Below are positions 15,001 through 18,000 of a stretch of 64,000 nucleotides of DNA, in pieces. Position 1 is the stretch's first letter; the number at the start of each line of letters is the position of its first letter. The notes beneath the pieces are model-generated. The model was not told where the DNA came from. It worked only from the letters and a program-made list of their open reading frames with translations, and did no database searches. Origin of the DNA: Eunapius fragilis. Taxonomy: Eukaryota > Porifera > Demospongiae > Spongillida > Spongillidae. A program made the position numbers and the translations under genes. The stretch is taken from positions 1,587,717 through 1,651,716 of the forward strand of contig OY811977.1 of assembly GCA_963681505.1 (NCBI GenBank), read 5' to 3'.

Positions 15001-18000
15001 TATCCAAACTATCATGTTGCATGCAGTTTTATGTATGTATCGGAGCTGTGGTGATGGATACCACCCCATCCCCAAACAGAAGAGCACCAGGGGGGCGTCT
15101 TCCTGACAATAATCAAGGGTAGCCCTAGGTTGACTGAAGCTGAGAAGACTGAGATCTTCAAGAGGGATAAGAAGGTGGTGGCTGAAAGCAAGAGAGGCGG
15201 AAGGAAGGAGGCCAAACTGAGGTAGTCCAACATGTTGCAGTCCCGGCCTGATCTGAACATGAGCAAGCGCCTACCTGACAGCCTCAAAGACCATTTGACG
15301 CTAGAGAATGGAGACAAACAGGCAGATGAGTTACCGTGCAGGTTAGAGGAGGTGGAGTCATTAGCCAGGACAGAGGAAGAGGAGCCGTTAGTCAGGATTG
15401 TGGAGGTGGAGCCAATGCAGGTGGAAGAAGGCGGTGATGGTGTGGTACATAACCAACAGCAGGTTGAAAGGGACCTGGATAACTTAATGTCTGTCATTTG
15501 GTGCCCCACATCATGGCTGTTAAACCTCACTGTAGAGATACTAGTACCCATTTTTACTCAGGTGTGTGTGTACTTTAAGGCAACCATACACTAGGCAACA
15601 ATTTTGCATGCAAGTCAATGAATCCTTCAGTAAAACACTATTTTACTAGAATTCATATTGTTGCACGCAGCATGTTGCCTAGTGTATGGTCGCCTTCACA
15701 TTTTTGCTGGCCTATTTATGACCCCACCCCCACCATTCATTATCCTATATATCAGAATATCATGTTGCATGCAGTTTTATGTATGTATTGGAGCTGTGGT
15801 GATGGATACCCCCCATCCCCAAACAGAAGAGCACCAGGGGGGGTCTTCCTGACGCTGATCAAGGGTAGCCCTGGGTTGACTGAAGCTGAAAGCTGAGAAG
15901 ACTGAGGTATTCAAGAGGGATAAGAAGGTGGTGGCTGAAAGCAAGAAGGCTCGAAAGAGGAGGAAGGAGGCTGAACTGAGGCGGCGGTCCAACATGTTGC
16001 AGTCCAGGCCTGATCTAAACATGAACAAGCGCCTACCTGACAGCCTCAAAGACCATTTGATGCCAGAGAATGGAGACAAACAGGCAGATGAGTTACCGTG
16101 CAGGTTAGAGGAGGTGGAGTCATTAGCCAGGACAGAGGAAGTGGAGCCGTTGTTAGTCAGGATTGTGGAGGTGGAGCCAATGCAGGTGGAAGAAGGAGGT
16201 GATGGTGTGGTACATAACCAACAGCAGGTTGAAAGGGACCTTGATGAATTTGAACGGACAGACACAATAGAATTAGACATTGATTTGGAGGAGGTGTAAA
16301 AGATTTGCTTTGCCAAATTCCAATCTACTTAGTAGTCAAGTGCTATATAATACGGTGACAGTTAAAATAACTGTTAAATATAGCATGTAAGGCCGTTTGA
16401 TGTCAGAGTGTGATTAAAAATAGGCAGTTAACATGCAAGGAATTGGAAAATGGCAGTCAAACAGGCCTATACCATGTAAAGAATTGGAAAATAGCAGTAA
16501 AAATAGGTGCATGTAGAATAAACATGCAGGTGGAAGAAGGCAAAGGCAGTGATGATGTAATGAAGGCCGTGTACTCCCCCCCCCAAGGTAACAGCAGGGG
16601 TGAGATCAAGATGAGCTAGAATAGACAGACACCATAGAACTAGACATAGGCAGAAAAATTTAATGTGGTGCAGTTTGCCATGCTCAAATACAAAAGCATT
16701 TACATGAGCAGTCATGGCCATAAAATATCACACAAGTGAGGAAGTCTAAGGTGAAAATGCTACCATTGCAGCATAGCCTTGATATATTGACAAAGTTGGA
16801 CGTTGACCTAATCAATGCCTAGAGCAGGTTCAATCTCCAACCCACAAGCACTCAACTCATAGCTTATATTAAAAGTCTGATTTTATTCGCTTTGTGTTCC
16901 CCCAAGGGGGATGGGCCGCACCCAGAGGTAGTGCAATACTAGGGCAACCCGTGGGACCGGCGAAGCAAGCTTCACTCCGAGTCCCAGGTTTCAAAAATTG
17001 ATGTAATATCGTCGGGACATTGTCCCGATACGAGATATTACACTCGTAAGAACAGTTATTTCTACTTGATCTTAGCCAAGAGGCCGAGAAGCGATAAATT
17101 TCAAAAACTTGCCTCCGATTATATAGCTTGGACCAGTTAGCGTGCTTAGGGGAAGGTATGGGTTCCGGACAGAAATAAACATGAACAAAAAACATGGCTT
17201 CTGTGGTCATCAGAAGACCACAAAATGACCCGGCGGCACACAAACGAAAACATGGTCGGTTACCCATTATATACGCTCTCTCTCCCCCCCCCCCCCCCCC
17301 CCTCCCGTGGTCACCCATATGCACTCCAGTACGCTCCTGTGGTCACCCATTGTATATGCACTCAGTACACTGTATACATACATGCCAAAGATAAGGCACA
17401 CTAAAAGTTGTTCCTCACCTTCATACCAATAACAGTTTCTTCTGTGCCGAAAATGTCCGTACGTCTCTCAGCCAGGTGCTTCAGGCTTGTACCAATGTTT
17501 GTGCCCTCAGCCAACACCTCTTCCTGCATTCTGCGCTCTTCTATCGACTTCTTCTTCTCTTCAATCCAACGGGGGTCAAGCAACCCTGTATTACACGAGT
17601 GCATTTGTGTGCGTGTGCGTGCGTGTGTGTGTGTGTGTGTGTGTGTGTGTGTGTGTGTGTGTGTGTGTGTGTGTGTGCATGAGCAGGTGTGTTCCAAGGA
17701 CCAAGAAAATCATTGTGATGACGTAATTCACACATCGTACAAACAAACAAAACACCGAACACACACATCCTTCTCCCTCATAACTTTTAATATTTGACTG
17801 ATCGACCTACTAACACACACTACATGAATACAAGAGCTCACCCCCCAACACACACACATACACACAACAACCACACTATATTAACACAATACAAACTACC
17901 AACATCATCAAACAACACCACCACACCATCACCACCACCAAACCATCACACCACACCACCACCAAACCATCACCACCCCATCATCACCAGACCACCACCA

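Follow-up and report, generated by a model that had tools for sequence, protein, structure and literature searches.

The GUAGUA branch-point recognition sequence of the U2 small nuclear RNA (snRNA) has been described as well conserved in metazoans, and a departure from it has been reported in Leishmania major, whose U2 reads UUAUAA, not GUAGUA, in its branch point recognition region (PMC4950102). In U12 snRNA, the stem-loop III motif CUACUUU is described as bound by the 65K protein (PMC6679479). Here, we examine a U2 snRNA gene of the freshwater sponge Eunapius fragilis in which the recognition sequence is GUAGAA. The gene lies in a stretch of 64,000 nucleotides (nt) of contig OY811977.1 in assembly GCA_963681505.1 (G000:C7:1587717-1651716), which was analyzed over its full length and is called the window below. 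The source assembly holds 218,937,333 bases in 24 contigs, and the genome note for the species gives 218.91 Mb, 23 chromosomes and a mitochondrial genome (PMC12616128). We place at roughly 60% the probability that this is the ordinary working U2 of E. fragilis, that its recognition element is a rewritten one in all copies found, and that the GUAG at nt 31-34 is the part used. We know of no recognition sequence other than GUAGUA in an animal U2, and a literature search, with subscription journals mostly outside its coverage, showed, among the papers listed, nothing on sponge U2 and no animal U2 with an altered core.

The window carries a complete U2 gene of 190 nt on the minus strand, with U2 nt 1 at 17095 and nt 190 at 16906. 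The Rfam model RF00004 matched it over model positions 1-192 of 192 with 151.9 bits (cut-off 46; E = 2.2e-31), and this was the sole Rfam match above its cut-off within the window and the best of its clan there. The parts of the gene that bear on branch-site recognition are as follows.

16906..17095, minus strand: U2 snRNA gene, matched by RF00004 over its full length; equals G000:C7:1604622-1604811 and is identical to copy L004.
17056..17064, minus strand: changed loop UAGAAAUAA (nt 32-40), read directly, which replaces UGUAGUAU; the same in 10/14 U2 matches, with close variants in 4/14.
17060..17065, minus strand: GUAGAA (nt 31-36), proposed branch-site recognition core, in 13/13 full-length and 16/16 core-bearing copies found.
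17050..17055, minus strand: CUGUUC (nt 41-46), unchanged flank; in 12 other copies, retrotransposon-like joins lie just 5' of CUGUUC or of the preceding (A)A.

Read directly, the core is AAG-UAGAAAUAA-CUGUUC where AAG-UGUAGUAU-CUGUUC is expected, UGUAGUAU being the Rfam consensus at the changed stretch and, as we take it to be, also the human sequence. The flanks GAUCAAG and CUGUUCUUA are unchanged, and the stretch between them is 9 nt long instead of the usual 8. Viewed as an alignment, CAAGUGUAGUAUCUG has become CAAGUAGAAAUAACUG, with one GU of the GUGU in GUGUAG missing and UAU turned into AAAUAA. An earlier sequence-only reading of the window, made without database searches, had proposed a U2 gene with a non-GUAGUA core between unchanged flanks; the direct reading and the model score confirm both points and add the strand. 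Its description of the core as replaced holds in part: GUAGUA is gone, and GUAG itself is kept 2 nt further 5', starting at nt 31 and not nt 33, and is followed by AA, not UA. The GUAGUA sequence is typical of metazoan U2, and a match can pass the Rfam cut-off without it. Model score, structure, Sm site and promoter layout all mark the window gene as a U2, with one departure among the properties tested: GUAGAA in place of GUAGUA, shifted by 2 nt. For nt 25-47, local folding gave no stable stem with the sponge sequence or with the canonical one; on paper, U-A pairs can close a GAAA tetraloop, which is not the structure that local folding of the main copy favours. A search for exact matches to the sponge core gave 0 in IMG/VR and 0 in GTDB contigs.

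Genome-wide, at least 28 Rfam matches to U2 were recorded, of which at least 26 exceed the cut-off; these counts are lower bounds. The 28 comprise 13 full-length copies (L001-L013), 2 copies with the 5' part alone (L025 and L028) and 13 with the 3' part alone (L014-L024, L026 and L027), the last preceded by foreign sequence. When a core-spanning pattern (GATCAAGT and TGTTCTTA, separated by 3 to 14 free bases) was run over the whole assembly, 15 places matched: 14 lie in U2, and one is an unrelated place on C19. All 14 U2 matches are of the GUAGAA type (10 GTAGAAATAAC, 3 GTAGAAATACAC and 1 GTAGAAAAAAAC), including one (C1:12509125) that is not among the 28 Rfam matches. Copies L013 and L025, whose right flanks differ and which escaped the pattern, also read GUAGAA, so that this sequence is present in 16/16 core-bearing copies found, on five chromosomes. 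No copy of the GUAGUA type was found in the assembly by Rfam matches, core pattern or 20-mer search, the last using the canonical 20-mer GGCTAAGATCAAGTGTAGTA with up to 2 mismatches allowed. Because all 16 core-bearing copies found read GUAGAA and no GUAGUA copy was found, the window gene is most likely the species' ordinary U2, as judged from sequence. Among the options that had been raised for this gene, the census supports the normal U2 of an unusual lineage; it contradicts a change particular to one variant copy, and the many GUAGUA copies that, together with a silent locus, would have marked it as a pseudogene did not appear.

The same census bears on two rival explanations. A canonical GUAGUA U2 might sit in assembly gaps and do the work, the GUAGAA copies then being pseudogenes or a variant family scattered through the genome. 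For this assembly, 802 gaps, a BUSCO completeness of 60% and a quality value (QV) of 60.4 are stated (PMC12616128), and many U2 copies are interrupted by foreign sequence; given the gaps, the completeness and the lower-bound counts, a missed canonical copy is conceivable. We regard this explanation as quite unlikely, since every core-bearing copy found is of the GUAGAA type on five chromosomes, the canonical 20-mer is missing from the assembly at 2 or fewer mismatches, and promoter spacing and stem pairing are conserved in the GUAGAA copies. A sequencing or assembly artefact at 17056-17064, which would have removed the anomaly, has a negligible chance of being the cause; nothing in its favour was found, the same core in 16 places and the stated QV argue strongly against a sequencing error, and this candidate was rejected.

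The remaining parts of the gene and the elements around it were compared across the full-length copies.

17070..17089, minus strand: stem I (nt 7-26), 7/7 pairs invariant in 13 copies.
17029..17048, minus strand: stem IIa (nt 48-67), every cell paired, 1 pair altered on both sides.
17013..17027, minus strand: stem IIb (nt 69-83), every cell paired, 1 double-sided change, from C-G to G-C or G-U in 4 copies.
16991..16999, minus strand: Sm site AAUUUUUGA (nt 97-105), read directly and invariant in 13 copies.
16953..16985, minus strand: stem III (nt 111-143), from the Rfam layout and pairing analysis.
16913..16950, minus strand: stem IV including its loop (nt 146-183), from the Rfam layout and pairing analysis.
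17146..17151, minus strand: CCCTAA, putative proximal sequence element at about -56; at -56 to -60 in 12/13 full-length copies and absent in L013.
17119..17125, minus strand: TATATAA, TATA-like box at about -30; TATA-like strings (a loose pattern) at -26 to -33 in 13/13 copies.
16875..16883, minus strand: AAATCAGAC, resembling the animal snRNA 3' box; an ATCAGAC/ATTAGAC-type string (by the pattern used) 22-23 nt past the gene in 8/13 copies.

The window gene has an Sm site and stems I, IIa/IIc, IIb, III and IV, the arms of stem IIc reading GUAAUAUC/GAUAUUAC. Over the 13 full-length copies, 94.8% of the cells in the U2 structure are standard pairs, and 3 pairs are changed on both sides. Every cell is paired in stems I, IIa, IIb and inner III, compared with 84.6% in outer III and 91.0% in IV; two of the 44 pairs from the Rfam layout form in no copy. 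With the partner moved along by 1 to 3 columns, pairing fell to 30-50%. The observed number of paired cells was reached by 0/500 shuffles, a strong result, and the observed number of both-side changes by 34/500, a weak one, and the covariation counts rest on few independent events. The pairing of the stems and the Sm site that had been noticed in the letters are therefore borne out by the 13-copy pairing analysis and by direct reading. The window copy carries CCCTAA, the TATA-like box and the 3' box-like string together. The last of these was labeled by its resemblance to the 3' box of animal snRNA genes; inspection by eye shows a variant of it in L007 (ATGTCAGAC), and in L010-L013 it is missing or hard to make out. 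The stems and the Sm site are intact, as are the promoter-like elements and the 3' box, and the suggestion of a dominant-negative or dead copy finds no support. A U2 pseudogene was rejected as well, given the kept structure and promoter and the lack of GUAGUA copies found elsewhere, and we infer that the GUAGAA copies are transcribed.

Variation among the full-length copies is distributed unevenly around the core. Within positions 1-36, through GUAGAA, the sole differences are a change at nt 10 in L013 and a single extra base in the loop of L010-L012. Positions 37-43 vary in 4/13 copies, which read AUACAC or AAAAAC or, in L013, have the segment deleted; the others read AUAAC. The full-length copies form two groups, L001-L009 and L010-L013, that differ at many positions. 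The second group (on C1 and C10) is a diverged set of U2 genes: it shows compensatory changes, and its promoter region and loop ends are different. Its members could be U2 genes put to another use or U2 genes in decay. In this group, L013, which lacks CCCTAA and part of the flank, may be a dead copy.

In the proposed mechanism, most of the RNA is as usual: stem I, the U6-pairing segment, the CUGUUC flank, the Sm site and the other stems match those of other U2 RNAs. The GUAG, now at nt 31-34, would pair with y-U-r-A-y, the portion of the branch site that counts in mammals, leaving the branch A as a bulge, and the new core could in this way do what matters. The change from UA to AA at the two positions past GUAG would favour UU over UA in the branch site. 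Cattle branch sites have been described as a loose nnyTrAy, with T and A the most constrained positions and TACTAAC making up just 0.22% (PMC8531310); on that comparison, the loss of the UA end looks tolerable. By calculated duplex energy, sponge U2 with UUCUAAC gives -3.2 kcal/mol, equal to canonical U2 with UACUAAC (-3.2 kcal/mol), and sponge U2 with UACUAAC gives -2.3 kcal/mol.

Introns for a comparison with these predictions were taken from myosin, CCT (chaperonin) and kinesin genes. The set derives from 185 exon matches (114/121 and 71/72 rows), and it comprises 104 introns, 82 from myosin and CCT and 22 from kinesin; 6 near-duplicates were dropped and 98 introns were used. SNF2 exons (35/46 rows) contributed no intron, as the 20/108 stretches retrieved included none from SNF2. 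Both sides were inferred for 67 of the 104 and the acceptor alone for 37, the latter set excluding those exon matches whose start is family position 6 or earlier. Since GT-AG (67 introns) or AG (37 introns) was required, these dinucleotides are present by construction, and some of the inferred boundaries will be wrong. In the 98 introns, yTrAy occurred at 42/3103 positions between -16 and -47 and at 18/3044 between -56 and -95, an enrichment at branch-site distance with an odds ratio of 2.3 and p = 0.0026, the p-value being before correction for 12 registers. Two scrambled control motifs were not significant (p = 0.13 and p = 0.58), and GUAG with wobble ranked 3 of 256 possible four-letter cores. 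Expectation-maximization motif discovery in the 98 introns recovered no branch-site motif and was captured by microsatellite-like TG-rich and CT-rich motifs.

Several results weigh against the use of GUAG at nt 31-34. The introns show no preference for UU over UA beyond yTrAy, and just 34/98 have yTrAy at 14-48 nt before the acceptor. The two cores that outrank GUAG with wobble, AUGU and GUAA, are not present in the sponge loop, and GUAG without wobble ranks 38th (5 vs 2). Genome-wide, neither TACTAAC (213 vs 240 in the reversed control) nor TTCTAAC (238 vs 261) was enriched before TTTNCAG, counting the motif, 8-30 nt and TTTNCAG, with the same patterns reversed as control; it follows that the old consensus is not a strong branch site here, and nor is the predicted new one. 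The earlier suggestion that this U2 pairs best with a UUCURAC-type site stands as arithmetic relative to UACUAAC and is otherwise unsupported. TTCTAAC is not enriched, and an added octamer, CAGUUAAU, pairs more strongly: it binds nt 37-43 at -4.8 kcal/mol and beats all sites tried for nt 31-36.

That octamer, the strongest duplex tried with the sponge loop, also points to a rival in which the gene is a normal U2 and the branch site pairs elsewhere, the likeliest place being A37-U38-A39-A40 with UUAAU (its second A the branch point), or in which proteins choose the site. AUAA (nt 37-40) ranks 1st of 256 cores without wobble, with TTAAT counted 14 vs 3 (p = 0.013); when wobble is allowed, its rank is fourth. 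Enrichment is also seen for TTRAY (26 vs 8). A minor role for pairing would fit a report that, in one gene, the use of distant branch points tracked accessibility and not U2 pairing (PMC7969005). The conservation pattern runs the other way, with AUAA changed to AUAC or AAAA or deleted in L010-L013 while GUAGAA is invariant, and just 6/43 yTrAy sites have, at -4, the G that would match C41. We treat this alternative as possible and as the one to be taken most seriously, at a probability clearly below that of pairing through GUAG. That nt 31-34 is the register used is our judgement, not a result.

Another explanation for the core was suggested by its likeness to U12, visible by eye between GUAGAAAUAAC and GUAAGGAAAAUAAC, with the U12 sequence being the one we presume. 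Derivation from U12, whether by gene conversion or as a U2/U12 hybrid, seems highly improbable to us, as everything outside the loop is U2 and CUACUUU is absent. A precedent for mixed RNAs exists in the hybrid U2/U12 features described in Giardia, and the same paper deems the diplomonad U2 likelier to be of the major type (PMC6679479). The Rfam U12 model (RF00007) had no match in the genome, and 14 control genomes were also without a match, so that this result does not show absence; likewise, a 23-mer of what we take to be human U12 found no match in the genome at up to 3 mismatches, which does not prove absence. The likeness therefore gained no further support from Rfam, the 23-mer or the motif. 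A U12 gene was also rejected as the identity of the locus, given that RF00004 is the match and CUACUUU is missing from the 190 nt.

The 13 copies with the 3' part of U2 alone resemble 3' junctions of retrotransposons without long terminal repeats (non-LTR), with at least 2 kinds of 3' end by eye. In 12/13, the border between foreign sequence and U2 falls at one shared point, immediately ahead of (A)ACUGUUC (AUUGUUC in L023), and in L024 it joins further into U2. This shared junction is the 3' edge of the rewritten stretch (GUAG-AAAUAA-CUGUUC). The U2-targeting non-LTR retrotransposons Utopia and Keno are reported to integrate at this position in U2, the U2 sequence continuing from nt 39, and sponges (Porifera) are absent from Table 1 of the paper concerned (PMC4640811). 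On C21, L028 and L016 fit one element, the 5' piece ending after GTGTAAT and the 3' piece starting with (AA)CTGTTC, with an overlap of about 20 nt; on C16, the pieces L025 and L018 would overlap by about 35 nt. Frames neighboring three of the copies were scanned, and one of the three held a reverse transcriptase, that next to L025 (PF00078, 4.2e-14). The frame next to L028 has a Myb-like stretch (4.5e-5, half a bit under the Pfam cut-off), and that next to L015 has no Pfam match; an R2-type (restriction-like) endonuclease was assessed by eye alone. The window holds a related fragment.

13063..13617, plus strand: retrotransposon reverse transcriptase fragment (PF00078, E = 7.1e-12), a neighbour and not part of U2.

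This fragment shares 75% identity over 148 amino acids with the frame downstream of L025. It falls within broken frames of a related retrotransposon at 12478-14007 (plus strand), and no second U2 above the Rfam cut-off is present in the window. AAAUAA would be accounted for if it were the A-rich trace of an insertion that failed, later carried to all U2 copies by gene conversion, as suggested by its position alone. We consider it unlikely, although less so than a hidden canonical U2, that the lineage re-set its branch-site recognition (GUAGAA, two nt nearer the U6-pairing segment) through such a gene-converted footprint of a U2-targeted retrotransposon.

Other features of the window were noted in passing. 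A gene for SF3A1, a protein of the U2 small nuclear ribonucleoprotein, seemingly occupies positions 1 to about 9000 on the minus strand, some 8 kb past the 3' end of U2; an exon containing GTVTFKVQVPNMPEHQEWKL (open reading frame 2-220) matches SF3A1 chains (E = 1.8e-7), and further exons lie near 5.1, 5.9 and 7.8 kb by eye. Its position near the U2 gene on the same strand is probably due to chance. Between 34978 and 49143, five long uninterrupted frames of AMP-binding enzymes stand in a row, one on the minus and four on the plus strand (PF00501, PF13193). After them come a short frame with a TIR domain (49514-49963; PF13676, 3.2e-23) and an MBT-repeat exon (56181-56666; PF02820). An ACACC array of 719 bases at 59772-60490 holds 143.8 copies with a 99% match. 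A repeated frame (with KRLPDSLKDHLTLENGDKQADELPCRLEEVESLART or close versions of it) is found at 15226-15594 (plus), 15880-16299 (plus) and 31419-31904 (minus), and the one of the three that was scanned had no Pfam match.

GUAGUA underlies accounts of branch-site choice, and a sponge with ordinary GT-AG introns and without GUAGUA offers a natural experiment. From it one could learn how much of the pairing between U2 and branch site an animal depends on (perhaps GUAG, or even less), by what means the RNA copes with a shifted register beside the U2/U6 core, and whether the branch sites change along with it. The case is also a warning that branch-point predictors built on mammals may fail in sponges. 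The altered core is directly testable, since RNA data were made for the species according to its genome note (PMC12616128).

Among the systems with which this locus can be compared, Utopia and Keno resemble the sponge sequences joined to U2 in the place of the 3' junction and in the reverse transcriptase and Myb-like stretches of the neighboring frames. The overlap of about 20 nt between L028 and L016 is like theirs, whereas that of about 35 nt between L025 and L018 is different, and the likeness as a whole is one of position and frames. U12 (RF00007), as we presume its sequence to be, shares a short A-rich string after the core; in contrast, the sponge RNA has a U2-type 5' domain and stem IV and no U12 loop motif. 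The U2 of the trypanosomatid L. major is alike in that its recognition stretch departs from GUAGUA, but it belongs to a protist and is also described as having an unusual Sm site and promoter (PMC4950102), whereas the sponge is an animal with GT-AG introns in ordinary genes, its U2 is otherwise standard, and GUAG is kept. The canonical metazoan U2 (RF00004) has the same 5' domain, U6-pairing segment, CUGUUC, Sm site, stems I-IV and length of 190 nt; the sponge RNA differs from it in having GUAGAAAUAA for GUGUAGUAU, a loop 1 nt longer, and a GUAG that lies 2 nt nearer the 5' end.

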